This document shows, in pieces, positions 1 to 64,000 of a stretch of DNA of 64,000 bases. The notes below the pieces were generated by a model. The model was not told the origin of the DNA and made no database searches. It was given only the letters and a program-made list of their open reading frames with translations. The translations under genes and the position numbers were made by a program. How positions within the stretch are numbered: the stretch's first letter is position 1; the number at the start of each line of letters is the position of its first letter. Source of the DNA: Tubiluchus corallicola (lineage: Eukaryota > Priapulida > Priapulimorpha > Priapulimorphida > Tubiluchidae); NCBI GenBank assembly GCA_030141605.1, contig JAQGDQ010000034.1:124001-188000 (forward strand), written 5' to 3'.

Positions 1-860
1 CTTTACCTGAATTTTACCTTCTCCCCCAAGGACAGATAGAGGTTGGATATAGGATAATGAAAAATAGCGACAAAATTCGAGTCTCGTTCAATGCCAGTAA
101 TCAGGGTGAAATGATACCTATTAACAACACCCACCCATAGTATAATGTACTAAAAATGTAGCGCTTGTGAGGTTACCATTTGGTATCGTCGCCCAAGCCT
201 TCAAGCCAGAAAATTGATGCCCCAATTAATGCCAGAAAAGAAATGACACAGATTCCCAGCTCAATGTTTGTTGGCAGGAGAATAATAATCTCTCTTATAT
301 AGTTTGTAACTTGTAATACAATCTTCATATAATTTGTAATAACTGTGGGCTTGTGTTATAAAGGGTAAGGGTGGTCAGAGAATAACATCTGTAAAGTCCA
401 GTGGAGAGTACACAATTACATATTGATTTGTTTGAGATTGCCAGTGGATTATCTGTAAGAAATTATACATACTCAGATTTTCGGACTGACATGGACGAGG
501 TATATGCGATAAGATTACTTTGATTTTACTTACAGCATGACCATGGGCCCAGAAATGTTGAGCAATTTGCCGTATCAGGAAATGCATTGCCGCCAATTAC
601 ATGAGCAATAGCCAGGGCAACGTAAGTGTTATTGCCATTACTGTTGTTGTGGTTCGTGTTGTTATGATACTTCTCATGCTGCTCTAGTGCATTTTGTTTT
701 TGTTGCAAATTTAACACAACACAATTTTTTATTACTGATGCCGGACAAGAAGTGGAAAATGAAGAATTTCGAGTAGTCAATCCGATTTTGGACAAGTCGG
801 GTTCTAATCTAAGTTATGTTACTATTAATATTCAAGCTGTATTATAGACCCCATGTTTTT
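1..860. other. Unique sequence upstream of the tandem array
   Basis: No convincing gene. The only gene-like signal is at 536-621, where good splice sites (a pyrimidine-rich acceptor ending TTACAG and a donor GTAAGT) bracket 86 bases that are stopped in all three frames. Its last third resembles the end of the variable exon of the downstream array. The tandem unit begins abruptly at 861. Confidence 0.5.
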
Positions 861-3008
861 CAGAAATGCAAAAAATACAATAATAATAAATTTTGTTTTT
901 CTGTTACTAAATTTGACAGGGAGAATGATAGAAAAAGGAGGGCGACCCGAAATAAATTGTTACAAAAAATTTCTTAGTTCGATTGAGTTATAACTTACGT
1001 GCTTTTAAGTAACTAATATCAAAAATTATACAAAATCAACCTAAGCCATTTGTCCCAAATACATGAAATTCACAATAGCTGCTAAATACGGAAGAGACTC
1101 TGAGGAAGAAGGCAGAAACTGCCGTGGTCCAAATAGTCGAGGGCAGCTTTTAGATCCACATGGGCTACCACTAACCGGGTCAGGATCCCGAGGTCCAGAG
1201 TACACAAAGTAGTGGAGTATTAAACGTTAAAGCCAGCTTGTTAGGGACAGCACCTGGAGAAGAGGAGAGATTTTCTAATGACGTGAGTAAAAGTTTTGGG
1301 CAGCATAGACAGGAGGTTGATGGTGCAACAAGTGCAATTGTGTGTGCAGTTACCTTTGCTTTGCGAAAGAAGGTGCTGTGGTTGTCTTTCAAGTCAGAAG
1401 CCACAGTGTCAAAATATTGACAACAGGTTCGAGACAGTTCCAGAAGACGTCTTGAACATGTTTACAGTAATTGGCAACTTGAAAACTACATCTTCCAGTG
1501 CGTGCAGATATGTATCAGGATTTCCGAAAAACATGATTGAAACACTGAAAAAATGAATTATTGCACGTATTACTAACTAATTTACGCTACTTTTTGAAAC
1601 AAAGGATGCACTAGATGTTAAGGAACATCTATTATGTATCCAAATCTTTACCTTCGCTATTCCGTGTTCGGAATGAGTTGAAAACTGATGATAGTGTTTT
1701 GAATTGTTCTGTCACTGGAATCAAAATGGCCGACTTCCACCTTGGTCAGTGATGGAATATCCCCTGTATTATGACGTCATAAAGTAGTTCCCACGGATGG
1801 TTATGCTAAAAATAGCATTGGAACAATTTACCCCTGTGACTTTTAGCCCCACCCTCCCCTATTTATATTTTGTATTTTTATTTTTATCTTGTTTTTAGTT
1901 TTTGCCAGGCATCCAGATCTGTAAAGTTTCGCTATGTTAAATCATACTTCGTTATAGTGTTTACTGTTTAGAAAAGCATGCTTTTGTTTTGTGGTTTTTG
2001 CCAGCCTATTGGAAAAGAAAAATACCTGTGTGTTAGAGGTCTAGTAACCTTTATCATAAGCTATAGTGACAATAAGCTGAGCAACTGTTTAAGTTTTTTA
2101 CCAGAGCCAACAGCCATAACATTTTTGCCTCTTCGATTATGCAGTTTTGATTTACGGATTGGTTGGTTGGCTAGGGGCTGTCTGTCTGGCCGACTGACTG
2201 CCTGACTGATTTAACAAACAAATGAATGACTATCTGACTGACAAATTGGTTGTTTTCCTGTGTGATTTGACGCAAGCTCAGGAGTGTAAATGTTGCTGCT
2301 TTCCTAATTTCCCAAGCACCCCAAACCAATTTCCAGTGTTGAAGAGGGAAGGAAGTTTGAAATTTTCAGAGAAAACAGACTTGTGCAAGTGCGACTATGT
2401 ACTTTAATGATTTTGTTGCTATACAAGCGAAGCTATTTAATATTATTACGTCAGTGATAATTACTAAGTGTTTTATTTGTATTGACAGTCCGATAGAAAC
2501 ACCAAAAGGAGAAAGAACAGCTGTGCCACCCTTAGAGACTGCGAGAAGAAGGAGCTCAGTGACCCCTCCCTGGGAAAACACCTTACGGATCGGCACCCTG
2601 CCGCCATTACATCTGCGCGGCAGGCGGGCCTGGTATGTATACAAAATTACTTCTTTTCTCAGTATATTATTTTTTTGTGTTAATTTTTATAAAAAATTGT
2701 CGCTTAGTTTTAAAAAACAGTAAACTAGTTGATTATTGCTTCGGACAGCACCACAGAGACCGAAGATTTTGCTATCTTCCTCTGCTGAGATGTTCCTAAC
2801 TCAAGTCGAAGGTAAGAGGACTGGTACTCTTTGCCCACCCAAGACTGCATTGACATAGACGTAGAACATTTATTTTCTCCAATTAGTTTAACATCAAAAG
2901 TTTTTTTTAAATATTAAGTAATTATAATCATGGAGCAGGGCAGGGAAGGTCCATAGAGTCCTCCTGCCCTTTCTTATAAATAGATTAGTCATATTAAAAA
3001 TTAATATG
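861..3008 (+). repeat. Tandem unit, copy 1 (~2.15 kb)
   Basis: First of three head-to-tail copies. The marker CAGAAATGCAAAAAATAC occurs at 861 and 3009 and, with a one-base change, at 5160, so the period is 2148-2151 bp. Copies are near-identical over most of their length. Copy 1 lacks a ~40 bp stretch that copies 2 and 3 carry near 4060 and 6210. The unit contains the small spliced gene described separately; nothing else in it looks like a known transposon protein. Confidence 0.95.
1278..2788 (+). CDS. Small spliced gene with variable exon 2, array copy 1
   Basis: Unrecognised family. Model: exon 1 ends ATG-AC at 1282 before a strong GTGAGT donor; intron 1 is 1283-2488; exon 2 is 2489-2632 (144 nt, acceptor TTGTATTGACAG, donor GTATGT); intron 2 is 2633-2748; exon 3 starts at 2749 and stops at 2786-2788. 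Phases join (2 then 2) and give 62 residues: MTPIETP at the N-terminus, a proline/arginine-rich core with RRSSVTPPWENT and GTLPPL, and CTTETEDFAIFLC at the C-terminus. No signal peptide or membrane segment is visible. RRRSSV resembles a basophilic kinase site. Exon 3 is followed at 2812 by a further good donor (GTAAGA), so a 3'UTR intron or alternative ending is possible. Exon 2 is also open in a second frame here. The chosen frame is preferred because substitutions between copies are often silent in it and copy 3 is open only in it. Transcription is unproven. Confidence 0.5.
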
Positions 3009-5159
3009 CAGAAATGCAAAAAATACAATAATAATAAATTTTGTTTTTCTGTTACTAAACTTGACAGGGAGAATGATACAAAAAGGAGGGTGACCCGAAA
3101 TAAATTGTTACAAAAAATTTCTTGGTTCGATTGAGTTGTAACTTACGCGCTTTCAGGTAACTAATATCAAAAATTATACAAAATCAACCTAAGCCATTTG
3201 TTCCAAATACATGTAATTCACAATAGCTGCTAAATACGGAAGAGACTCTGGGGAAGAAGGCAGAAACTGCCGTGGTCTTTGACATGGGTTACCACTAACC
3301 GGGTCAGGATCCCGAGGTCCAGAGTACACAAAGTAGTGGAGTATTAAACGTTAAAGCCAGCTTGTTAGGGACAGCACCTGGAGAAGAGGAGAGATTTTCT
3401 AATGACGTGAGTAAAAGTTTTGGGCAGCATAGACAGGAGGTTGATGGTGCAACAAGCACAATTGTGTGTGCAGTTACCTTTGCTTTGTGAAAGAAGGTGC
3501 TGTGGTTGTCTTTCAAGTCAGAAGCCACAGTGTCAAAATATTGACAACAGGTTCGAGACAGTTCCAGAAGACGTCTTGAACATGTTTACAGTAATTGGCA
3601 ACTTGAAAACTACATCTTCCAGTGCGTGCAGATATGTATCAGGATTTCCGAAAAACATGATTGAAACACTGAAAAAATGAATTATTGCACGTATTACTAA
3701 CTAATTTACGCTACTTTTTGAAACAAAGGATGCACTAGATGTTAAGGAACATCTATTATGTATCCAAATCTTTACCTTCGCTATTCCGTGTTCGGAATGA
3801 GTTGAAAACTGATGATAGTGTTTTGAATTGTTCTGTCACTGGAATCAAAATGGCCGATTTCCACCTTGGTCAGTGATGGAATATCCCCTGTATTATGACG
3901 TCATCAAGTAGTTCCCGCCGATGGCTATGCTAAAAATAGCGTTGTGACAATTTACCCCTGTGACTTTCAGCCCCACCCTCCCCTATTTATATTTTGTATT
4001 TTTATTTATCTTGTTTTTAGTTTTTGCCAGGAATCCAGATCTATAAAGTTTTGCTATGTTAAATTTACTCTTGGTATAGAAAGTGTGAATTGAAGTCGAG
4101 TCAAACTTCGTTATGGTGTTTACTGTTTAGAAAAAGATGCTTTTGTTTTGTGGTTTTTGCCAGCCTGTTGGAAAAGAAAAATACCTGTGTGTTAGAGGTC
4201 TAGTAACCTCTATCATAAGCTACAGTGACAATAAGCTGAGCAACTGTTTAAGTTTTTTACCAGAGCCAACAGCCATAACATTTTTGCCTCTTCGACTATG
4301 CAGTTTTGATTTACGGATTGGTTGGTTGGCTGGGGGCTGTCTGTCTGGCCGACTGACTGCCTGTCTGATTTAACAAACAAATGAATGACTATCTGACTGA
4401 CAAATTGGTTGTTTTCCTGTATGATTTGACACAAGCTCAGGAGTGTAAATGTTGCTGCTTTCCTAATTTCCCAAGCACCCCTAACCAATTTCCAGTGTTG
4501 AAGAGGGAAGGAAGTTTGAAATTTTCAAAGAAAACAGACTTGTGCAAGTGCGACTATGTACTTTAATGATTTTGTTGCTATACAAGCGAAGCTATTTAAT
4601 ATTATTACGTCAGTGATAATTACTAAGTGTTTTATTTGTATTGACAGTCCGATAGAAACACCCGAACGAGTAGAACTACCAAGACTGGAACAAGCGAGAA
4701 GAAGGAGCTCAGTGACCCCTCCGTGGGAAAATACATTATGGAGGGGCACCCTGCCGCCATTAAATCTGCGCAGCAGGCGGGCCTGGTATGTATACAAAAT
4801 TACTTCTTTTCTCAGTATATTATTTTTTTGTGGTAATTTTTATAAAAAATTGTCGCTTAGTTTTAAAAAACAGTAAACTAGTTGATTATTGCTTCGGACA
4901 GCACCACAGAGACCGAAGATTTTGCTATCTTCCTCTGCTGAGATGTTGCTAACTCAAGTCGAAGGTAAGAGGACTGGTACTCTTTGCCCACCCAAGACTG
5001 CATTGACATAGACGTAGAACACTTATTTTCTCCAATTAGTTAAACATCAAAAGTTTTTTTTAAATGTTAAGTAATTATAATCATGGAGCAGGGCAGGGAA
5101 GGTCCATAGTCCTCCTGCCCTTTCTTATAAATAGATTAGTCATATTAAATATTAATATG
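3009..5159 (+). repeat. Tandem unit, copy 2 (~2.15 kb)
   Basis: Second complete copy of the unit, joined directly to copies 1 and 3. It is nearly identical to copy 1 in introns and flanks, with the main divergence confined to the second exon of the embedded small gene. Confidence 0.95.
3402..4941 (+). CDS. Small spliced gene with variable exon 2, array copy 2
   Basis: Same structure as copy 1: exon 1 ends ATG-AC at 3406; exon 2 is 4648-4785 (138 nt); exon 3 starts at 4902 and stops at 4939-4941. The predicted product is 60 residues. Against copy 1 it lacks two residues in the variable stretch, which reads TPERVELPRLEQAR. It keeps RRRSSVTPPWENT, GTLPPL and the C-terminal CTTETEDFAIFLC. The 92 bases before exon 2 are identical to copy 1, and the 116-base intron after it shows one difference, whereas the exon differs at roughly a fifth or more of its positions. 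Function unknown. Confidence 0.5.
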
Positions 5160-7019
5160 CAGAAATGCAAAAAGACAATAATAATAAATTTTGTTTTTCT
5201 GTTACTAAATTTGACAGGGAGAATGATACAAAAAGGAGCGTGACCCGAAATAAATTGTTACAAAAAATTTCTTAGTTCGATTGAGTTGTAACTTACGCGC
5301 TTTCAGGTAACTAATATTAAAAATTATACAAAGTCAACCTAAGCCATTTGTTCCAAATACATGTAATTCATAATAGCTGCTAAATACGGAAGAGACTCTG
5401 AGGAAAAGGCAGAAACTGCCGTGGTCTTTGACATGGGTTACCACTAACCGGGTCAGGATCCCGAGGTCCAGAGTACACAAAGTAGTGGAGTATTAAACGT
5501 TAAAGCCAGCTTGTTAGGGACAGCACCTGGAGAAGAGGAGAGATTTTCTAATGACGTGAGTAAAAGTTTTGGGCAGCATACACAGGAGGTTGATGGTGCA
5601 ACAAGTGCAATTGTGTGTGCAGTTACCTTTGCTTTGTGAAAGAAGGTGCTGTGGTTGTCTTTCAAGTCAGAAGCCACAGTGTCAAAATATTGACAACAGG
5701 TTCGAGACAGTTCCAGAAGACGTCTTGAACATGTTTACAATAATTGGCAACTTGAAAACTACATCTTCCAGTGCGTGCAGATATGTATCAGGATTTCCGA
5801 AAAACATGATTGAAACACTGAAAAAATGAATTATTGCACGTATTACTAACTAATTTACGCTACTTTTTGAAACAAAGGATGCACTAGATGTTAAGGAACA
5901 TCTATTATGTATCCAAATCTTTACCTTCGCTATTCCGTGTTCGGAATGAGTTGAAAACTGACGATAGTGTTTTGAATTGTTCTGTCACTGGAATCGAAAT
6001 GGCCGACTTCCACCTTGGTCAGTGATGGAATATCCCCTGTATTATGACGTCATAAAGTAGTTCCCACGGATGGTTATGCTAAAAATAGCATTGGAACAAT
6101 TTACCCCTGTGACTTTTAGCCCCACCCTCCCCTATTTATATTTTGTATTTTTATTTTTATCTTGTTTTTAGTTTTTGCCAGGCATCCAGATCTGTAAAGT
6201 TTCGCTATGTTAAATTTACTCTTGGTATAGAAAGTGTGAATTGAAGTCAAGTCATACTTCGTTATAGTGTTTACTGTTTAGAAAAACATGCTTTTGTTTT
6301 GTGGTTTTTGCCAGCCTATTGGAAAAGAAAAATACCTGTGTGTTAGAGGTCTAGTAACCTTTATCATAAGCTATAGTGACAATAAGCTGAGCAACTGTTT
6401 AAGTTTTTTACCAGAGCCAACAGCCATAACATTTTTGCCTCTTCGATTATGCAGTTTTGATTTACGGATTGGTTGGTTGGCTAGGGGCTGTCTGTCTGGC
6501 CGACTGACTGCCTGACTGATTTAACAAACAAATGAATGACTATCTGACTGACTGACTCTGACTGACAAATAGGTTGTTTTCCTGCGTGATTTGACACAAG
6601 CTCAGGAGTGTAAATGTTGCTGCTTTCCTAATTTCCCAAGCACTCCTCACCAATTTCCAGTGTCGAAGATCTAAAGAAGTTTGAAATTTTCAGAGAAAAC
6701 ATACTTGTGCAAGTGCAACTATGTACTTTAATGATTTTGCTGCTATACAAGCTAAGCTATTTAATATTATTACGTCAGTGATAATTATTAAGTGTTTTAT
6801 TTGTATTGACAGTCCCATATTAGCACCACTGCCCGGGCAACGCAACCCTAATCGTCCCCCTCAAAGTTCGACAAGAAGGAGCAGTTTGACCCCTCCGTGG
6901 GAACACACAATACGGAGGGGTACCCTGCCGCCGTTACAACTGTGTGACAGGCAGCCCTGGTACTTTTCTCAGTAGATTATTCTTTTTGTGTTAATTTTTA
7001 TAAAAAATTGTCGTTCAGT
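5160..7019 (+). repeat. Tandem unit, copy 3, truncated
   Basis: Third copy, about 1.86 kb. It follows copies 1 and 2 until roughly 7019, where the sequence switches to a hAT transposase remnant. An internal GACT stretch is expanded near 6540-6565, and ~18 bp are deleted just after exon 2, removing the GTATGT donor. Confidence 0.9.
5551..6975 (+). CDS. Small gene of the variable array, copy 3, lacking the last exon
   Basis: Exon 1 ends ATG-AC at 5555; exon 2 begins at 6813 after the same acceptor. The variable exon is the most divergent of the three: its start reads PILAPLPGQR and its conserved part RRSSLTPPWEHT then GTLPPL. The usual donor is lost by a small deletion, and copy 3 ends before exon 3. 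Reading runs through to TAG at 6973-6975, giving about 55 residues ending WYFSQ. The alternative frame open in copies 1 and 2 has two stops here. It may be a pseudogene, or a functional truncated form if transcribed. A weak donor GTACTT at 6960 would preserve a 147 nt exon. Confidence 0.4.
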
Positions 7020-8214
7020 TTTGAAAAGTGTTCTTTCGGATGTAGTATCAGTTGTGAACTATATACGTGGCCGTGCTTTAAACCATAGGCTTTTCAAAGC
7101 ATTGTGTGCAGAAATGGGAAGCGAACATGAAGTCCTACTGTACCACACCGAGCTGAGGTGGCTATCTCGTGGTTGTGTTATAAATCGCATAATTGAGTTA
7201 CAGAAAGAAATAGAACTATTTCTGGAGGAGAAAAGGCATGATCTCTACCAAAAAATCAAGAACTCTGCTTTTATTCGTTCGGTTGTCGGACATATTCTCG
7301 TTACTGAACGAACTTAACACCTCGATTCAGGGAAATAGTGTGACCATAATTGACGCAAATGAGAAGCTTGTTGCTTTCAAGCAAAAGCTCGACCTCTGGA
7401 AACGTCAAGTGTCTCACAACAACTTCGCAAACTTCCCTTGCCTTGACAGTGTTCTAACAGAGAATGAAGAGTATCCATATCTAAGGAAAGTTATCACCGA
7501 TCACCTTTGTAGTCTGTCAACCTCGTGTGATGGTTATTTCAATGTTGTAAATCTGCATGATGCCAAGGCATGGATTGCAGACCTCTTCAGGTACAATCTG
7601 GATGATATGGACGATGATGACATGCTAAAAGACGATCTACTGGAATTGCATGAAAGCAGCCACCTGAAATATCTTTTCGCTACAACATCCGTAGCTAAAT
7701 TCTGGTGCAATTATGAAGTACGAAAAGCATATGCAGGTTTATCTTCATCAGCTGTTGCAGTGATTGTTCCTTTCATTACGACTTACACGTGAGAATCCGG
7801 ATTTTCCGCCATGGTATCATTAAAAACTAAAGACAGGAATCGATTAGATCTCCGACATGACTTACGCATCGCCCTATCGTCTACAACCCCCCGAATAGAT
7901 CAACTAGTGGTGGATAAACAACAACAAGTGGCACAATAACTGTCTAGCCATCCTTTCCCAAAACAATGTTCAATTTAAATGGCTAACCAGTTACTGATCT
8001 TTGTTTTTCTTTTATGTCAGTTTCCTGTAATCATGTTCATATTCAGCATCAGGTGTATTGGTGCCTTACTTAATAAAGTTGTGTTTCAAATTGAAATTTG
8101 CATTATTTCAGTCATTTTCCTTCCAGGGGTAGAGATGGGGGTTAATGGAGGCACTGAGTGGTCGACTTGGGGTTAACGCTCTAAAAAGGTTGAGAACCGT
8201 TGGTCCAACGCCTG
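7020..8214 (+). mobile_element. hAT transposon remnant (ZBED5/FAM200-type transposase)
   Basis: Three overlapping reading frames encode the C-terminal half of a hAT-family transposase similar to domesticated ZBED5/FAM200 proteins. Landmarks are VNYIRGRALNHRLF near 7050, HTELRWLSRG near 7150, LLNELNTSIQG near 7310, and PFITTYTCESGFS spanning a frameshift near 7790. The frame ends with TAA at 7937-7939. Frameshifts lie at about 7240-7280 and 7790, so it is dead. A polyA signal AATAAA is near 8071. The element probably ends at the GAGAACCGTTGGTCC-type terminal sequence at 8190-8214. The 5' half is missing where it meets the tandem array. Confidence 0.85.
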
Positions 8215-10230
8215 TAAGTTTGAAGAAAAAAGGCAAAGAACTTACAATAGCAAAATTAGAACTAATGGGAGTTCTCATAGGTATTCGGGCAATGACGTTT
8301 GTGGAAAATCAACTCAAACTCCCTGTGAGTGGTAATACACTATACTGAGATTCACAAGTTGTCCTACAGTGGATTGGTTCAAAAGGCAACTGGAACCTTT
8401 TGTACAAAATAGGGTTCAGGAAATTCAAAAGGCTGAAGCTGTGACATTCAAATATGTCCCCACCAAGCAAAATCTAGCAGATATACTGAGCAGAGGAACA
8501 CATGCACAGAATTTGAGGTCAAATGATGTCTGGTGGACTGGACCACCCTGGCTATTTGAGCCTGTAGAAAAATGGCCAGATTTTGTAGTGCCGACTGAAA
8601 ACCCAGAGCATGACAGAAAACCCGAATCTACAATGATGTTAACCAGTGACAATGTAAAACTACTGAACTGGGAAACGTTACCACTTGAAATGTGTGACGC
8701 TCGATTTTCATCATTTCAGAAAGTACTTCGCGTGACTGTAGTTTGTCTGAAGTTTGTTAAAAGGATTCTCAATATTCGAACAGATGGAGGATTTACAGAT
8801 GAAAACACTGGAGACAGTGTAAGAATGATTTCCGCTCATTCAGAAATAAATGGAGAAGAAACTCGCAGATTATGCAGAAAATTTGTGGTTAAAAAGATTG
8901 CAGGCACAGTATTACAAAGAAGAAAAATGTGCAATTCTTGAGGGAAGAAAAACCACTCTTCAACAACAACTAGGTCTTTTTATGGATTCACCTGGATTAA
9001 TTCGATGTGGTGGCCGATTTTACCAGTCACAAACTGAAGAGAGAGCATATCCAGTGTTGCTTCCCAGAAAACATTGGATTATTAGCTTGATTATAAAGGA
9101 TGTAGCAGTATTACATGGACATACAAACCATATGCTCTCTGAACTCAGACGTAGATATTGGATACCCAAAGCACGTGTTGAAATTAACCAAATATTAAAG
9201 GACTGCATGATTTGCAAAAAACATTCTGGCAGACCATTCTCTCATCCAGCGTTTCCCCCTTTTCAAGAAGAAAAGCTGGCCAGAGCTTTGCCATTTAGCA
9301 TAATTGGAGTGGACTATTTTGGACCAGTTTTCTTGAAGATTGACGCAAATAAGAAGGCATGGTGTGTACTAATAACATGCTAGCTCTGTCGAGCAGGTCA
9401 TCTTGAACTAGTTTTAGATATGACAACTGTGTCTTTTCTAGATGCTTTTCGGCGATTTGTTTCCTGGCAAATCCTGCCCAAGAAAATATTTTCGGACAAT
9501 GCAAAACAATTTCATACTGCTGAAAATTATCTGAAATTTCCATGGAAAATCTGCCTGATGACAAAGAAGTAAATCAGTAATTGAGCTTGCATAGAATAGA
9601 ATGGATATTTGTGCCCAAACTCAGTCCATGGCAAGCAGGGTTTTATGAAAGAATGGTAGCCACAGTCAAATCTGCCTTAAAGAAATCCCTTCGACAAAAA
9701 TCACTAATGGCACAACAAATGGAAACCACAGTTTGCGAAATAGAAGTCTTGGTAAATACCAGACTACTAATTATGTGTCAAATGATCCTGCAGATTGGCA
9801 GCCACTTAGACCAGTAGATTCCTTAAATCCTGGATTTTCAGGAATTTTGCCTGATCCACCATTAATGCCAAAAGATGATCCAGATGTTATCTTAGAAAGA
9901 TTATCAACGAGTGAAAATTTGTCCAAAATCAGAGAAAAGGAAAATCAAATTTTGACGGATTACTGGAATTGATGGTCACATGAAAATCGAGTGAAAATTT
10001 GTCCAAAATCAGAGAAAAGGAAAATCAAATTTTGACGGATTACTGGAATCGATGGTCACATGAATACCTACAGTTGTTGTGAGAACGTTTCAGTATTCAT
10101 CACAAATCAGGAAAAGGTGATATTAAACGGCAGCCAGCAGTTGGAGAAGTTGTCTTCATCGAAGAAGAAAACATCCCACGTGGAAACTGGAAACTCAGAA
10201 GAGTAATTCGCTGACATACAGCCGAGATGG
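8215..10230 (+). pseudogene. BEL/Pao retrotransposon pol remnant (RNase H and integrase)
   Basis: Reads in broken frames through the 3' half of a BEL/Pao polyprotein. First is RNase H (TIAKLELMGVLIG near 8250, DSQVVLQWIGSKGN near 8350, KQNLADILSRG near 8470, WWTGPPWL near 8530). Then come the zinc-binding region of integrase (HGHTNHMLSELRRRYWIP near 9115, CMICKKHSG near 9205) and the integrase core (IGVDYFGP near 9305, FSDNAKQF near 9490, LSPWQAGFYERMV near 9620). The C-terminal VGEVVFIEEENIPRGNWKL is near 10140. Several stops and frameshifts are visible (for example 8346, 8939 and 9380). The 5' half is absent, cut by the hAT junction. No LTR could be identified. Confidence 0.88.
9908..10067 (+). 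repeat. 80 bp tandem duplication inside the Pao remnant
   Basis: The stretch beginning CGAGTGAAAATTTGTCC at 9908 is repeated from 9988 with very few differences, a direct duplication of 80 bp within the integrase C-terminal region. Confidence 0.85.
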
Positions 10231-15387: not shown

Positions 15388-16347
15388 TGGCAGTGGCAGC
15401 AAATCGACGCCCTGATAGAAATGAGTTTGTGAATCTGACTCTGATTCTTTCTGAATCTGGGCGCAAGATTTCGGGGAAATATTGAGGACACTATAAATTG
15501 GTGCAGGCAATATGGTTTGCTGGCAGTAAACATGATCTGCCCAGCATGTAATGAACCGTGTCAAGAAAGTGTATATTCAAGGGCTGTCGATGGGAGAGCC
15601 TGGTGCTGCCAGCAATGTCGTAAAGTAGTCAACATCAGGAAGGGCAGTTTTTTTGAGAAGTCCCACTTAGCCTTATGGCAAATTTTAGGTTAGACTTATT
15701 TGTGGTGCACCACCTGTGGAAAGGCCAGAGGCCTGTCAGTGCATATACTCATGAAAGAGCTGGAAATAGGGTCTCCCACCAGAATTGTTGATTAGCACCA
15801 GTTTTGCCAAGATGTAGCTGTTGCATATTTCATCAACAATCCTGAACAGCTGGGTGGCCCTTTGAGGACTGTCGAAATCGACGAATCTTTGTTTGCGCGC
15901 TGTAAAAACCAGCAGGGTCGTGTAGTTCAACAGCAATGGGTCTTTGGGGCCCATGAGGTCGAAACGAAAAAGGAGCTTCTCGTGCCTGTGGCAAGTAGGG
16001 ATGCACAAACCCTGCTTCCAATAATTCAGCAATGGATCAGGATAGGAACAACTATCTGGTCTGACATGTGGCGGGCATACAATGCCATACCACTAATGGC
16101 TGGTGGTTATGCTCACCAAACTGTGAATCATAACTTGAATTTTGTTGACCCACAAACTGGTGTCACCACAAACCACGTTGAAGCCATGTGGCAGAGAGCT
16201 AAAGCCAAATTCAAGGCAATGAATGGACCGACAAATCGGCAAATGATTTGTGACTATTTAATCGAATATATGTGGACGCAACGTTTCGGGGAAACCGCGT
16301 TTTTTAATTTTTGGTTCCAAATTGCGGATCAACTCTACGTTGTTTAA
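15388..16347 (+). pseudogene. Merlin/IS1595 (ISXO2-like) DNA transposase, degraded
   Basis: The 3' half is an open frame from 15862 to 16347 with the DDE triad of the ISXO2/Merlin family: TVEIDESLF (first D), TIWSDMWRAY (second D) and NHVEAMWQRAK (E). It ends in YVV. Upstream in the same orientation is the N-terminal zinc finger (MICPACNEPC near 15534, then WCCQQCRK near 15604), but in-frame stops near 15690 and 15790 and a frameshift near 15480 interrupt it. The element is therefore dead. Terminal inverted repeats were not found by eye. Confidence 0.9.
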
Positions 16348-32985: not shown

Positions 32986-35391
<2,406 letters not shown>

Positions 35392-37115: not shown

Positions 37116-38653
37116 ACAGTCAACTACGATTAGAACACTTGACATACCCTGGTGGTCTAAGTAGTACTTATCACAAATCAGAAACTATCACAAATGAATC
37201 TTATGATGAGATACAATTGTCAGATAAATTTTATAGAAGAAAAAGCCAACCTGTAAGAATTAACATGTTTAGTGAGCGTAGACAATCATTGCGACTATTA
37301 CAACTGTTTTCAATACTATAAATGAAGCCAAAAAAGGAATAATTAGTACACTGATGATACTAAAATGTAAACGCGTAACTGGAAGAAATTGCCGAAAAAA
37401 TTACCTGATCTATGAGATTCGGAAAAAACATTATAATACAGTAATCAATTAGTCTAAGTCTACATAATAAAAACAACAGCAGTAAGCATTATAATAAAAA
37501 ACACAATTTCTACAATCTGAATGTCATACCTGAGATTAATTTTTTTGCATTGTAGTGCAATTTCTTCTATTTACGTCTACGTTTATTTTGACAATTTAAA
37601 TTCCAAACTGTTGATTTGTAAAGAAACTTTGTTCCTTTACATTTTAGTATAATCAGTGTACTAATTTATTCCTTTTGTGGCTTGATTTATAGTATTGAAA
37701 ACGGCTGTAATAATTGAAAAGATTGTCTACTCTTCACATAATTCACTAATATGCTTGTTATCCTTGTTCAGGGCTACCAACCTTTAAGTCACAATCACTG
37801 CGATGAACAATGCAAGCGAAAACGTAGAATTGACAAAGTGTGTCAGATGATTCCACAGGATATCATAAAGAAACATGAACGCTTCAAATACTTCATAAAA
37901 GTGGACGATCGTCATAAGCTCGTGTACTGTATGGTGCCTAAAGTTGGATCTAGCAATTGGCTAAGAACTTTAATAGCAGTTAATGTCAATGATTCAAACA
38001 CTTCGCCAGAAAACGTTTCATTCTCGGCTGCTCATCTCGACTTTCGCAAGTACGGCATAAGGCACCTTTCTAGTTACCCGTATAAGAGGCGGCGAGAAAT
38101 TTTAAACACTTACTTCAAATTTGTGTTTGTAAGAAATCCTTACGAGAGAGTACTATCGGCATATCGTTGTATGTTCACAGAAAAATACGTTGATGAAAAG
38201 CAGCAAAAACTTAGAGAAATATTAGCTAAGTGGTACAAACATAAAGACTACGATAAGCCTTCAGACAAAATAAACATAACGTTTCCTGAATTTCTCTTTT
38301 ATTTATCTGATCCAAAAATCAGGATTTATGACCCTCTGACAGTTGAACGCTCATCTCGTCTTGGGAACATGAATCCACACTGGACGCCATTTTTTGAACT
38401 TTGCAATCCATGCCTTGTTAAATATGACTTTATAGGCAAGCATGAAACAATGAACGAAGATGCTGCTGCCGTGTTAGCACAAGTTGGTTTAGAAAATGTC
38501 AAATTTCCAAGAATTAGAGACAATCAATATGGACCCAGCAGTGAGTATCTACGGCAGTACTACACTGATATCAAGCCAATGGTTATGAGGTCGTTGGAAA
38601 TGCTGTATAATATTGACTTTGACATGTTCAAGTATGAAAAAGTGGCAACATAA
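37116..38653 (+). CDS. Carbohydrate sulfotransferase, HNK-1/CHST8-14 family (copy 2)
   Basis: Catalytic exon 37772-38653 has exactly the length of copy 1's (882 nt, phase 0 start) and the same motifs: PKVGSSNWLRTLIAVN, VRNPYERVLSAYR, NPHWTPFFELCNPCLVKYDF and IGKHETMNEDAA. A likely stem exon is 37116-37252 (acceptor TTATTTGACAG, donor GTAAGA), encoding SQLRLEHLTYPGG through FYRRKSQP. It enters in phase 1 and leaves in phase 0, just like exon 2 of copy 1. No ATG/membrane-anchor exon of its own was found. Joining exon 1 of copy 1 (33045-33186, phase 1) to these gives 1161 nt, 386 residues in frame, so an alternatively spliced shared anchor is plausible. Otherwise its first exon was missed. Golgi sulfotransferase; acceptor sugar unknown. 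Confidence 0.88.
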
Positions 38654-53041: not shown

Positions 53042-56000
53042 TACTATATATATTACTATCTATATTACTCTCTATATATTACTATATAAAATTTGTATAT
53101 GCCTAACACCCAGACCAATAAGTTATGTAAAAGTAGAGACATAAGTTAAAAATGTAAAGCAAATTGCAAACAGGCAGCAAACAGGTCAATTTTCTATAAA
53201 CTTCTAGCAACACCAGTTTCCTCATTATATTTGGGTTATTCACATCAAAAGAATATGAGAAAAGAAAGTATAATTACTTATAAAGTTAGAACTAAGGCCC
53301 ATAAGAAGGTGGGAAAAACATATTTTTATTTCGAAATTTGAAAATGAACTAAATACGGAGCATTTAGATGTCCCAGAAAGGTCAGTAAGGGACAGACGAC
53401 AAAATGATCAAATGTGGGACATGTCCCGTATATAAGGGACGTCTGGCAACCTTACAGTAGCTCTACCTATTTAGTAAAAATAGAACCATCACACATGCCA
53501 AACAAACGTTACTCTACTCACCTTGGGCATCATGTTGTCAAGCATGACAATGTCGCAACCGGCAGCAGCAGCAGCCATGGCTTCTGATAAGTTCTGACAC
53601 TCTACTTCAATTTTTAAGGAGAAGCCGCAAGCTTTCCGCGCCATTTTCACTGCCTGGAAATTAAAAGTTTCCTGACAACTAAATGCACATTATTACATAA
53701 AAATTCAGTTCTTGTTTTTAACCTGTGCAATATGTTAGATTCTACGCAAGATAAAATACTGTAGTCGAGGTAAACATATGAGAAAGAAGACCTGAACTTC
53801 AAACAAATATATATATAAGGTCTTTTTGCTAGAAGTTTATGAGCAAACCCTAAAGTGTTCCAGAAAAAGTATGCCATAATACGTCCACACGAATACGGTT
53901 ACCCTGTATAATTTTAAGATAATGGCCCATTTAAGTTTCAGTGTTAAGAACTTGTTCAGTGTTCACTTTACCCCCTATAAACATATTACAAACAGACAGA
54001 AACATGCCACCAAATAACCAGATTGACATCAAAATGACAGGAACATTGTTAATTTGCATAATTTGAAGAGAAACATTGATAGGATAAGATTGCAAGATAA
54101 GGCGACCCACTTAAATTTCAACATATTAAAACTTTTTTCTTGTGCACTTTAGACTCAGTTTATTCACTTATTCCTAAATACTCTTAAAGCCAGAATTTCT
54201 GGTCAAAGATCATTGCCTCATTTTGTTTCCAAATCTGCAAATAGAATGTGAATAATTTCTACTTCTCCTCTGTACTCCTTAGATACTTGCTCCTTAACAT
54301 TTTGTAATTGATTGTCATCAATGTTTACGTGATAAACACTATTAAATCTGCTTACTTCTTCAATACTTTCTGCTGACCAAATGTGATTATCCTTTAACAT
54401 CACCATGGAAGACAAATCATATCTATGAGTGGAAACGCCACCAACTAACAAAGCGTATTTCTCAACCATTCGAAACCCGGGTGTCGTCTTCCTTGTCCCG
54501 GCTATCTCCCCATGCCAGTTTGCAGTGTGCTTCTTCCCCGCAAGGTGCCTAGCAACTGTTGCTATGCCACACGCTCGAGTGATGCAGTTCAAAGCGACCC
54601 GTTCACCAAGCAGAAGTTTTCTTGCACTTCCAGTAACTGTTGCGACCTGAAAACATAGTAAAAATTATGAACAAAATGACTGCACATCTTTGTATAAAAC
54701 GAACTACAGAAATAATACGTTAATAAAATCAATACGTCAATCTAGGGTTATTGATTTCCTTTGTCAACAAGTAAATTTCCTGTTCCTTTACATTTATATT
54801 TATTGTATGCAATGCCAGAGTGCACAACTTGCCTGTTGGAGCTGACACTAAGCTTACGACTAGCACACTAATCTAGTAATTGTTGTTGGTACCAGCCACA
54901 CACCAGAAATGTCACTAAAAAGCTTCCTGGTTTAGTGAAGCATTGGTTGTTAAAAATACATAATGAAAAAGCTCACAGTAACTTTTGGGCAGTCACTCGG
55001 TAAACTCTCTGACTAGCTCGCACTCAGTCTCCGGCAAGGCAGACTCTTGAACTGCTTTTATGTTTGGCAAACGTGGCTCAATGGAAAAATTTATCTCTCA
55101 TCACATATCTTTTGTCATTGTAATATGTTTGGAACAGTGATGTACGAAAAGTGAGTCAACTTAAAATAAACAGATGTCAAACACCAAACCTGCTGTACAG
55201 TGTTTTTTCTCACCAAAGTAATGTACTAGCAAAGGATCGTCAAAGAGAACAATTACAACAGGAACAATGCAAAATACTAATGAGAATCCTAGTGAAGAAA
55301 GAGAAAATCTTAGTATCTTTAGCATCTTAAATGCAACAATGCAACTAAATGTCACTCCAAACAAACAGCACACCTTTACTGGGAGCTCGGCAAATCCATT
55401 ATCCTGACAGAAATCTGTGCCCTCTGGATAATCCCATTCGACTTCGCAGCCGAGAGTATGAAACACTGCATTAAAAAATGGGCATCCTGCCAGAACACCT
55501 AAAATTGTAAAGCCAAATAATATTACGAGGTTGCAACTTCATTTTAGCAGCTTTTCATGTATTCACAAAGCCAAAATTACTAAACATGTTCTTGGGAGAA
55601 AATCATTGTAAACAAAATATGAATACCATAAATGATAAATGCTCTTGCTTCTACAAAACTGAGTATTATCATGGTCATAATAATTTATTATACATGATCC
55701 TATTTAAAAAAAAATTGCTTATTTATGCAGGGTGTTGTGCAACACACAAATCCACTGAACCTGAAAGACCCAGCAAGATAAAAATGCAATAAAATTAGAA
55801 CATTCTTAAGAATATATCACAAAAACAGGATATTTGATTCATGCACAAAAATAATGATTTTAACCTACTTATGTTCTATCTATAGAAGTCACCTATTCAA
55901 CTGTGCATATATTAGTACAGTTACATTTGGGCTGGCACATTACTAAACTCAATCATGAATCTAGTTGAGTGAGCTTTGGAGGTAATCTTACAAATTCTTG

Positions 56001-60267: not shown

Positions 60268-63200
60268 TTAAACATCAACATGCTGTAGTACAGCCATAAA
60301 AAAGGGTGTTGCATGTTCTGCTGCACGCCATACTGAAGATGGTAGACATTGCGTACCGGAGTCACCTTGTTGCTCCGTAGGTATCGAGTGCGCTGGATGA
60401 ATGAATTTCCTTAATGTATTCATTCCTTCTTTCTGTTTCTTTGTTCTACCACTTTTTTCTGGTGTAGGTGTAGCATTTTCAACATAATACTTGGCAACTG
60501 TGGAAACACGTTCTTCACTTATACCTGCAAAACACACAAAACAATTATCCATAGGTCTTTATATTGGACAAGATGACACATATTCAGTTTACTATATCTA
60601 AAGTCATTCGAAAAACCAGAAAAAACAACATAAAAAATTAAACATTGCTTTAACAAGAAATATTGATTGTAGTATGAGAATGAACAATAAAAATGAATAT
60701 GCCATCAATAAGAATCCAGGATACAAACAGGTAATCTTACCGAAAACGGACATAAATGTGCTTTTGCAAACAGGTATCTTCTCAATCAGCTGCATGTCAT
60801 TCTCTCTGAAAAGGTGGTACTTGATTATAACATGTGGCTTTTTTATTCTATCTTTCACTTGCACTCCATCAATAGAAGAAAATTCTAACAAAACTGAAAG
60901 GGCTTTGTCCTGCTGTGCTTTGCTGGATGATCTATTGAATTCAGAATGGTTCAATTCCAAATCTTTGCTAGTAAGCAAGTTGGCACAGCAGAAATTTTGA
61001 CTGTCTTCTGCGTTATGAGGGCACGCTATTGTTGGAGATTTTGAGACTTCGCTGCATTTGAACATCATTTTTGTCCCTCGCTGCTCCTGACCATTTTCTG
61101 AAAATGTTAAATGCTTCAGTAAAGTCGTAAAAATCTATAATTACGTCCGTAGTTTAACAAAACACTTATTCCACTCATACTGTATGCAGCATTACTGCAA
61201 CAGTGATAGTAGCAGCAAAAGCACCACGGCAATAGACAAGTCCAATTTCACCTGTGCATCATAATATCATAGTCATCATAATCTACCTTGCACACAATTA
61301 TTTATGACATTAAGGAAATCCCCAAAAACTTTTTGCCTCATAGTCATCTATGTTTGTATCCAAATCTAACAACTATAGCCATTTATTTATACTTAAACGG
61401 ACATGTATAAGTTTTTTAAAATTATCTAAATAGAATCATAGATTTTGGAAAGCTGAAAACTATTTTATTATGCAAAGCTTACTATTGTTCTTGATTTTAT
61501 GGATACATTTTATGGTCAAAGTACTCATTCGAGTTTTTCATACAATGTAAGACTGTAAGTTGCGTGCAGGTGATCGACAAGTGTGCAGTACAAGCAACAT
61601 ACAAACTTCATGTAGACAGTCATATCAATATTACCACATGCACGACTTTGTATTCGTGAAAGGTTGCTTCTATCGTAACATTGCAATTTCTAATAAAACT
61701 TTTTACCAAGAAGGGCATGTCATTTAAACCAAATTGTGATTAGACAGAGTGTCACAAAGCGCACCTTAAAAAAGGAAAATATATCCATCTGCAGTAAACG
61801 TGGGTTTACACACGAAATAGAAATAATTCATAGTAACATAAAACACAGTTTTGTAACTAACATAAAACAGAGTTAAGCAAATTAATCACATAATATCAAA
61901 ATATCAATACCACTCAATAGCTGCTAAACATGATGAGAGTAAACTCAATGTCGAGTCATATACATGGCTATACCATCATTACCTCCATTATTGTACTGCC
62001 ATTATGATATGTGTGCTTGCATGCCAAAACCGTCCATAAGTTGGCACAGTTAAAACTACGTTGTGATGCTTCAAAGTAGAATGAACCAAAAATTTTGTCA
62101 AATGTCAATTTTTCGTATTTTGTAAAAACCAATGCTAAATATGTTGGGCCTTTATATTCTAGCATCAAATTATCAAGAAAATGTTCAAAAAACACTAAAA
62201 ATTTAATTTTACAACTCCTTAAAAAACTTGTAACTTCAATGTGTTCTTGCAAGGTCCATAGCAACCAACATTTGTAAGGTTTGCTAAATGTTTTGTAAAA
62301 AGGCGACAAAAAACAATGGCTAACTTTAACAGGGATTGTCTCAATGTTATGTTTTTCGGTGAGTACCCTGCATCTCAACTTCAATGTCGATTAACCCAAC
62401 TTAGAAAGAACATAGAGTGAGGAACTTGGTATCCACACGATCCAAATGACAAGGAGATTCAGGATATGTGAATAACTAGAACAAGTTAACTGCTGACTTA
62501 TGGACGATTTTGCTACGCAAATAGTTCAATATTGTTAACCACTACCTTTGATAATACCAAGATCAGTAATGAGCTCTGCAGAAACTGGAAAGTTTGCGCC
62601 TCCAGAAAATCGATTAAAGTGCTGTTTGCTATTAAAGCCAATTACAGCATCAAGAAGTTTTACATTACATATAAATAAGCTTCCAAATCAACAAACCTTC
62701 CTCAGACAGACACACATCCGCATGAATTTCAAGTACTGATGACGTTTCTGCTAAGTCTTTACCATTTTCAGAGGTTTGATCGCAGCTTTCAGTTGTCTAT
62801 ATAATTACATAACGAATAAAATGAGAAACATATTCAGAAATATATGATTTATGTTTAATTTATATGACTTATTTTACCTGACTGCAACACAAAAAAGTGA
62901 ACAAAAATAAAATGATACAAACAATTTATATTAATATGAAATATGTTTAGTCTTATAGTGATAGCAATGCCAATATGCTGAGACTGAACTGTTTCTATTT
63001 AAAGATGCAATTTAAAGTAATTTCAGACTACTACAGCTTGAGGATTCATATGTACAGAGTTATACTCTCTATCTATAGAGGCAATTTACGAAAAAACATA
63101 CTTACGAGAGAACGTAGTGCATACAAAAGATAATACACAGATAAAACAAGATGTAATTGTCTTGAATAGAAAGGGTCAATACTACTCACAGCACTATAAA

Positions 63201-63588
63201 CAGTTTTTCCATTGATAACTAAAACATTTCTTCTCACCTCTTTTCTTTTTCTTTTTTTGATTTGCTTTCCTGCGTGCATCTGTTGTTTTGGTTGTGGTGC
63301 AGGCGAACGATCAAAAAGCAATGGGACTGCATCCGCTTTCAGTCTCCTTTTTACAGGTGGTGGCGGCAGTCCCATAATTCTATGATACATGCTTTCTTCA
63401 AAGCAATCGTGGGTAAAATGTTTCGAGCAAAGTCTGCTTGCTGGAGTCACTGTAAAATCTGGATGTCCCATGTGATGAAGCCACCTTTTTAGCAGGTCAG
63501 GCTTATTTAGAGGGAAACGATGCCAGGATAACCCAGGATCTTTTGTCCTGTGTGTGTTGCCGCAGTTTGGTGCTTTACAAATGGGCAT
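60268..63588 (-). CDS. THAP-domain DNA-binding protein
   Basis: Minus strand, at least four coding exons: 63588-63238, 62796-62763, 61097-60741 and 60524-60268. Phases join (0,1,1); 999 nt, 332 residues. Residues 1-90 form a THAP zinc finger of the C2CH type: MPICKAPNCG, LSWHRFPLN, then RWLHHMGHPDF and ASRLCSKHFTHDCFE. A proline-rich LPPPPVKRRLK and a basic KKRKRKE segment, a likely nuclear signal, follow. The C-terminal half has KALSVLLEF, then IPVCKSTFMSVFG joined across a splice to ISEERVSTVAKYYVE; this C-K-x-F ... ISE-R-V pattern is also seen in uncharacterised invertebrate nuclear and transposon-related proteins. Exon 2 may use a second in-phase donor at about 62697 (GTTTGT), and a further exon (62560-62680, containing LLDAVIGFNSKQHFNRF) is possible. 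Start 63588 is preferred over 63612 because THAP domains usually begin at MPxC. Target genes unknown. Confidence 0.85.
61100..62540 (-). other. Large intron of the THAP gene
   Basis: Contains a 138-codon minus-strand open stretch (62384-61968) without splice, codon or domain support. Otherwise AT-rich with no repeat recognised. Confidence 0.4.
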
Positions 63589-63612
63589 TGTCCGTATACT
63601 ATGGCTTATCAC

Positions 63613-64000
63613 AGTATTGATAAGGCTATAATAACCAGCAGCTTTTCAACAGACTCCACATTGTACCAGTCTGAAGCCAAGTAATCCCATTAGCCATCGT
63701 GGCTCACGATGCACTGTCTCTTACGCCTAAAGATATGTTAGTCAAATTCTCTTATACCCTATCCACACACGTCAAGATTAATCTATAAAATGTTTGTACG
63801 ATAGTATGAATTTTCAAGCAAAGTACATGAATCAAATGCACAGGAACACTGTTAATTTGCAAAACCGTTATACATTTTGCTCATCTCTTCATAACTTACA
63901 TGTAACTAACTATATATTGTCACAACCCAAATTTGTATTGCTATTTGTTGCAAATGGCTCTGAAAATTTTCATCTACAGCAAGTCCTTGCTTAATGACGT
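63613..64000. other. Region upstream of the THAP gene start
   Basis: Expected to hold the 5' UTR and promoter of the THAP gene on the minus strand. No distinctive motif identified. Confidence 0.4.

Follow-up and report, generated by a model that had tools for sequence, protein, structure and literature searches.

A tandem array in Tubiluchus corallicola in which a predicted coding exon is more diverged than the DNA around it

Why should a predicted coding exon be more diverged than the introns and flanks of the tandem copies that carry it? This question is raised by three tandem units in the priapulid Tubiluchus corallicola, which lie in a 64,000 nt stretch of contig C1923 (C1923:124001-188000; this whole stretch is called the window, and positions refer to it unless a contig or locus is named). 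Exon 2 of the three units differs at 18-31% of its sites, while the DNA on either side differs at 0.7-9%. We consider homogenised flanks combined with selectively protected, ancient exon types to be the best explanation, and on balance just about probable. The initial annotation, made from the sequence alone, had described three units of about 2.15 kb with identical introns. The unit starts at 861, 3009 and 5160 agree with this, but unit 3 breaks off early, and the introns are of low divergence rather than identical.

The genome, comprising 343.5 Mb in 2344 contigs, was searched for further units, as had been suggested. A DNA search with the unit, for which the best 40 of 524 candidates were scored, gave at least 9 matches to unit copies, so that others may exist beyond those listed here. 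Such copies lie at 291-298 kb of C1923 and at 55-58 kb of C1966. The exon 2 set thus comprises six copies: units 1 to 3 from the window, Ba and Bb (C1923:291-295 kb) and A10 (C1966). They fall into two exon types, A (units 1 and 2, A10) and B (unit 3, Ba, Bb). The possibility that C1966 is the other haplotype of the window was not supported: among matches >400 bp, alignment was confined to the unit regions and to two short stretches of repeats (in a comparison with 169.5 kb of C1923 that excluded C1923:248001-288499). The units and their second exons are as follows.

861..3008, + strand: tandem unit 1, with A-type exon 2, 2148 bp (sequence comparison)
3009..5159, + strand: tandem unit 2, with A-type exon 2, 2151 bp (sequence comparison)
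5160..7027, + strand: tandem unit 3, with B-type exon 2, broken off inside intron 2 at about 7027, at least 1866 bp
2389..2488, + strand: last 100 nt of intron 1 of unit 1, with 4 variable columns in the six copies
2489..2632, + strand: exon 2 of unit 1, 144 nt
4648..4785, + strand: exon 2 of unit 2, 138 nt
6813..6959, + strand: exon 2 of unit 3, 147 nt, with a frame that extends to a stop at 6973-6975
L009:3250-3393: exon 2 of Ba (genome copy)
L009:6716-6859: exon 2 of Bb (genome copy)
L010:5284-5424: exon 2 of A10 (genome copy)

The contrast between exon and surroundings was the central claim of the initial annotation, and it holds. Units 1 and 2 differ at 25 of 138 sites in exon 2 (18.1%), and unit 3 differs from them at 43 of 140 and 43 of 138 sites (31%). 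Units 1 and 2 share 119 identical bases directly before exon 2 (92 had been counted), and after it they differ at 1 of 153 sites. Among the six copies, exon 2 differs by 13-35% in 14 of the 15 pairs, Ba and Bb being identical (0/144). The 5' intron differs by 1.0-5.5% (15 pairs) and the stretch after exon 2 by 0.7-10.6%. The 100 bases before exon 2 contain 4 variable columns, compared to 77 of 151 in the exon.

By the test of reading frames, exon 2 is a coding exon, as had been proposed. When ATG-AC is taken as exon 1, frame 0 is free of stops in each of the six copies, and every other frame is stopped in at least one. All length differences are multiples of three. In the conserved half, compared in ten pairs of five distinct exons with Ba omitted, the codon differences in frame 0 number 54 synonymous and 58 non-synonymous, none of them with a stop. 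The five other frames have only 6-27 synonymous differences there, although two reverse frames are also free of stops in this half; with stops in some copies and fewer synonymous changes, they were rejected as coding frames. The predicted product of exon 2 is a basic peptide of about 45 residues, whose N-terminal segment varies and whose core, RRSS[VL]TPPWE[NH]T..RGTLPPL, is conserved. The two motifs which had been reported as held, RRSS[VL]TPPWE[NH]T and GTLPPL, are common to all A and B copies. We infer that the units are spliced and expressed. No hydrophobic leader is seen by eye, no predictor having been used, in the predicted product (M-T-P-I..., starting from the putative exon 1), and a secreted toxin or immune effector is thus not favoured. 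From its basic, serine-rich core we presume a putative intracellular, phosphorylated docking peptide.

Synonymous divergence (dS) and non-synonymous divergence (dN) were computed for the ten pairs of the five distinct exons; Ba was omitted here, as well as from the trees of split exons, because its exon is identical to that of Bb. Over the whole exon, dS is 0.18-0.95 and dN 0.09-0.45, with dN below dS in 10 of 10 pairs. Two pairs, unit 1-unit 3 and unit 2-unit 3, are near equality, and the lowest dN/dS is about 0.13 (unit 2-A10). Relative to the divergence of the 5' intron, the exon dS is higher by a factor of about 4 to 90. In the conserved half, unit 1 and A10 are separated by 8.5 synonymous and 1.5 non-synonymous changes, unit 2 and A10 by 11 and 3. 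An excess of change at synonymous sites over 5' intron sites was found in all five of the ten pairs on which a Fisher test was run, with p values from 0.012 (unit 3-Bb) to 3e-25 (Bb-A10). Bb and A10 differ at 11 of 1127 intron sites and at 44 of 137 exon sites. With their high dS and with dN below dS in every pair, the exons look old rather than newly accelerated. Judged by divergence, exon 2 is either older than the DNA that surrounds it or has been swapped in.

The histories of exon and intron disagree. In the 5' intron tree, the three window units are set apart from Ba, Bb and A10, and Bb joins with A10, while the exon tree groups units 1 and 2 with A10 and unit 3 with Ba and Bb. The swapped groupings were rejected by the approximately unbiased (AU) test, with values of 0.043 for the 5' intron and 0.00055 for the exon. 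Of 20 informative sites at 1860-2220, 10 join Bb and A10 against the other four copies, 6 join units 1 and 3, and 3 split the window units from the rest. Sites that follow the exon type are lacking in this region (0 of 20); they make up 3 of 7 at 2324-2488, 15 of 37 within the exon and 8 of 9 downstream of it. Within 1747-2225, units 1 and 3, which carry different exon types, differ at 1 of 479 sites, whereas units 1 and 2 differ at 21 of 477 with 39 gaps. Ba and Bb have the same exon on 5' introns that are 3.8% apart, which suggests that the exon and its right flank can move as a block. The 5' intron of Bb is only 1.0% different from that of A10, which carries the other exon type. Such conflicting trees and mosaic flanks are marks of conversion or unequal exchange between the copies.

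According to the explanation that we prefer, each unit would be a copy of a small gene with a short exon 1 (ATG-AC), an intron of about 1.2 kb, and exon 2. Ectopic gene conversion and unequal crossing-over would overwrite the upstream region, the introns and the flanks, which would then look young. Conversion of exon 2, chiefly in its variable segment, would be purged by selection as its versions would not be interchangeable, and exon 2 would thus retain its ancient differences. This selective reason is one that we infer. In addition, the variable segment may provide specificity and the core may bind a common partner. The identity of the Ba and Bb exons suggests that flank homogenisation and segment replacement may both act.

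More distant relatives of the exon are found elsewhere in the genome. In a whole-genome peptide search with the exon of unit 1, all 14 candidates matched, namely the six known copies and eight more, five of these with an expectation value (E) below 1e-6 and three between 0.07 and 0.77. Seven stretches were fetched, which cover all eight. Seven of the eight matches (C1432 twice, C2191 twice, C1935, C831 and C1711) constitute what we call clade C. When a clade C peptide was used as query, 13 of 13 matches were listed, every one among the 14 places already found. Clade C has the exon and one 28-bp stretch in common with the unit loci and nothing else (blastn, E 1e-3). As in the A and B copies, its reading frame apparently takes two bases from the exon before. 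Exon 1 was not found in the fetched upstream stretches, except for candidates in C1432b and C1935 which the other copies lack. In four copies a stop follows directly after ..WY, two continue, and C1432b is truncated.

Two lineages of clade C can be compared: C1432a, C2191a/b and C1711 on one side and C1432b and C1935 on the other. They differ by 38-43% over the first approximately 60 nt, by 7-14% upstream, by 13-19% in the conserved half and by 11-13% downstream (C831 and C1432b lack segments and are not included in the corresponding comparisons). All six between-lineage pairs are saturated for synonymous change in the first segment, with dN 0.43-0.48 (C2191a and C831 left out). The eighth match, on C1766, is a degenerate tandem piece: the exon relative lies inside an imperfect tandem repeat of about 260-320 bp (L039, C1766:12200-13800). 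Near it, an 82-bp stretch is 73% similar to L009 DNA that resembles the upstream flank of a unit.

Several observations weigh against protected exon types in homogenised DNA. The 100 nt adjoining exon 2 are the least variable of the 500 columns examined, although their linkage to an old exon should have made them the most variable; a splicing constraint may contribute to the low variation there. The AU value for the intron is marginal, and trees from the conserved half (AU 0.59 and 0.47) do not separate the alternatives. Only the 15 of 37 exon sites mentioned above sort strictly by type; 6 others unite unit 1 and 2 unite unit 2 with the B copies, so that the exon has a mixed history of its own. 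The near-identity of units 1 and 3 over 1747-2225 is interrupted by 37 gap positions. The alignment of the variable segment is uncertain, which makes its dS values rough, and in one of ten pairs (unit 2-Bb) dN exceeds dS even in the conserved half (0.21 vs 0.14). Some unit copies may be dead, as Ba lacks exon 1 in the fetched upstream DNA, A10 has a GC donor after ATGAC, and unit 3 is truncated. In clade C, the flanks are not very young, and the conserved half shows no clear constraint, as dN equals or exceeds dS in two of the six pairs (C1432a-C2191b and C2191b-C831) and is about equal to it in a third (C2191a, C1711 and C1432b left out). Together with this lack of clear constraint, the defects of C831, which begins inside the exon, and of C1711, which lacks 18 nt, indicate that several copies may be decaying.

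Similar patterns would arise if the units were young and if exon 2, or its variable segment, had been overwritten through conversion of short tracts, the donors being older, diverged paralogues that resemble the units in the exon alone. This accounts for the sharp boundaries at the exon edges and is favoured by the identical exons of Ba and Bb on different 5' introns, one of them so close to that of A10. The mixed site pattern within the exon would suit repeated small exchanges, and diverged paralogues with the exon but almost no flank similarity to the units do exist. However, as judged from the alignment by eye, none of the fetched paralogues comes close to the variable segment of either type, the search with the clade C query provided no additional donor candidate, and the exon of A10 is old relative to those of units 1 and 2 and was therefore not moved recently between these copies. 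Thus, the diversified cassette that the initial annotation had considered remains as a serious rival but is not the favoured reading; we regard such replacement as possible, although rather unlikely. More tentative still is the view that in a dispersed family the N-terminal segment is an exchangeable cassette, ancient types having been re-paired with homogenised backgrounds by short-tract conversion near the splice acceptor in at least two clades (A/B and C).

That the units are remnants of repeats or mobile elements, with the exon borne by an element or captured as a fragment rather than belonging to a host gene, appears improbable to us. The clade C copies lie on five contigs with about 0.2-1.3 kb in common and with differing 5' ends, C831 starts within the exon, and the units adjoin transposon remains, all of which speaks for this reading. 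On the other hand, copies of the peptide are few (the A query gave 14 matches and the C query 13, which amount to 14 places in total, with all candidates scored), and synonymous change is in excess in frame 0. Positive selection on recent duplicates with rapidly diverging exon amino acids, the accelerated evolution of venom or immune families to which the initial annotation had likened the array, is not borne out and must be considered quite improbable. It may still act on parts of the exon, in view of the pair with excess dN in the conserved half and of three of ten pairs in the variable segment with dN above dS (unit 1-unit 3, unit 2-unit 3 and unit 3-A10; strongest 1.38 vs 0.90), but whole-exon dN is below dS throughout and dS is far above intron divergence, and selection on amino acids alone would not raise synonymous divergence. 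Local hypermutation confined to the exon would explain why synonymous and other sites have both changed and why the left edge is sharp. This edge, however, lies at or near the likely splice acceptor in two clades, the motifs of the conserved half are retained, and no mutator that halts at splice sites is known to us, so that hypermutation is barely credible.

The initial annotation knew of no family with these motifs, and our searches found none. The exon peptide has no Pfam match; a profile search of PDB was empty and the sole PDB match had E 1.5. No relative was found in about 5.8 billion proteins, and a five-row exon alignment searched against the protein database gave 0 of 3542 candidates at E<=10. 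A literature text search returned no paper that contains the five peptide motif words. The divergence pattern has precedents, and a description of the peptide family was not found in the literature and databases searched.

The closest precedent is provided by the L/M opsins of primates. In PMC3213168, tandem copies with exons more diverged than introns are described, with raised synonymous divergence that is not exceeded by the non-synonymous one and with disagreeing intron and exon trees; for gibbons, intron gene conversion and purifying selection against exon conversion are argued. Here, equally, exon synonymous divergence is above intron divergence (weakest p 0.012) and the trees conflict. 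The opsins are known receptors encoded by two adjacent genes, while the present copies occupy three places and encode a short peptide of unassigned family, and the large contrast reported here was measured in one genome. For three-finger toxins of viperids, PMC2474615 describes highly similar introns with distinct short exon segments, and segment replacement is proposed under the term 'accelerated segment switch in exons'. These are venom proteins with a signal peptide, whereas the peptide considered here has none by eye and no cysteine framework; at the level of sequence, the comparison with them was by the general searches. The Sp185/333 (SpTransformer) genes of the sea urchin are likewise small, two-exon, clustered genes of a diverse family, but according to PMC3091723 they are immune genes whose second exon contains repeats.

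The array may thus be a sharp natural case of coding segments kept apart amid homogenised DNA, and clade C of this genome presents a comparable contrast. Positive selection need not be the cause when exons have diverged further than introns. The exon also marks out a family of short, conserved peptides for which our searches gave no relatives, and selection may distinguish its variants.

Further parts of the units were annotated as follows.

1278..1282, + strand: putative coding part of exon 1 in unit 1 (ATGAC), followed by a GTGAGT donor (predicted from DNA)
3402..3406, + strand: putative coding part of exon 1 in unit 2 (predicted from DNA)
5551..5555, + strand: putative coding part of exon 1 in unit 3 (predicted from DNA)
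2749..2788, + strand: putative exon 3 of unit 1 (..CTTETEDFAIFLC stop), in which A and B copies diverge after about 25 nt
2848..3004, + strand: dispersed repeat of about 157 bp inside unit 1, unrelated to the exon (DNA search)

The DNA of ATGAC and the donor is conserved in units 1 to 3 and in Bb. Unit 3 lacks 17 bases after exon 2, which alters the context of the intron 2 donor, so that the frame runs on to the stop given above. For the 157-bp repeat, the genome DNA search gave at least 36 further matches outside the unit copies. Part of intron 1, at 1349-1700, is nearly invariant in five copies (units 1-3, L009 and L010); 1499-1598 has no substitution in the five and one gap in A10. The open frame 1287-1556 (89 aa), which is nearly invariant and lies partly in this stretch, has no Pfam match. 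An Rfam scan of 1-8000 gave a single sub-threshold match (E 0.95), which was dismissed. About 470-480 bp of intron 1 that are present in Bb (L009:5790-6261) and A10 (L010:4350-4828) are missing in units 1-3 and in Ba.

Unit 3 adjoins transposon-like remains and retroelement-like pieces at 7028-9972, with an Integrase_H2C2 match at 8850-9383; an interrupted open reading frame (ORF) in this region, without Pfam match, is one which we take to be hAT-like. An ORF with an ISXO2-like (IS1595) transposase domain is found at 15796-16347 (+ strand, E 8e-19). Two adjacent carbohydrate sulfotransferase-like ORFs occur at 34387-35391 and 37742-38653 (+ strand; Pfam Sulfotransfer_2, E 8e-45 and 5e-45). The former matches 21 proteins in the protein database, the best named one being 38% and an unnamed one 82% identical. 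On the - strand, the window carries a quinolinate phosphoribosyltransferase-like ORF at 54218-54664 (E 2e-23) and a THAP-domain ORF at 63073-63645 (E 5e-15).

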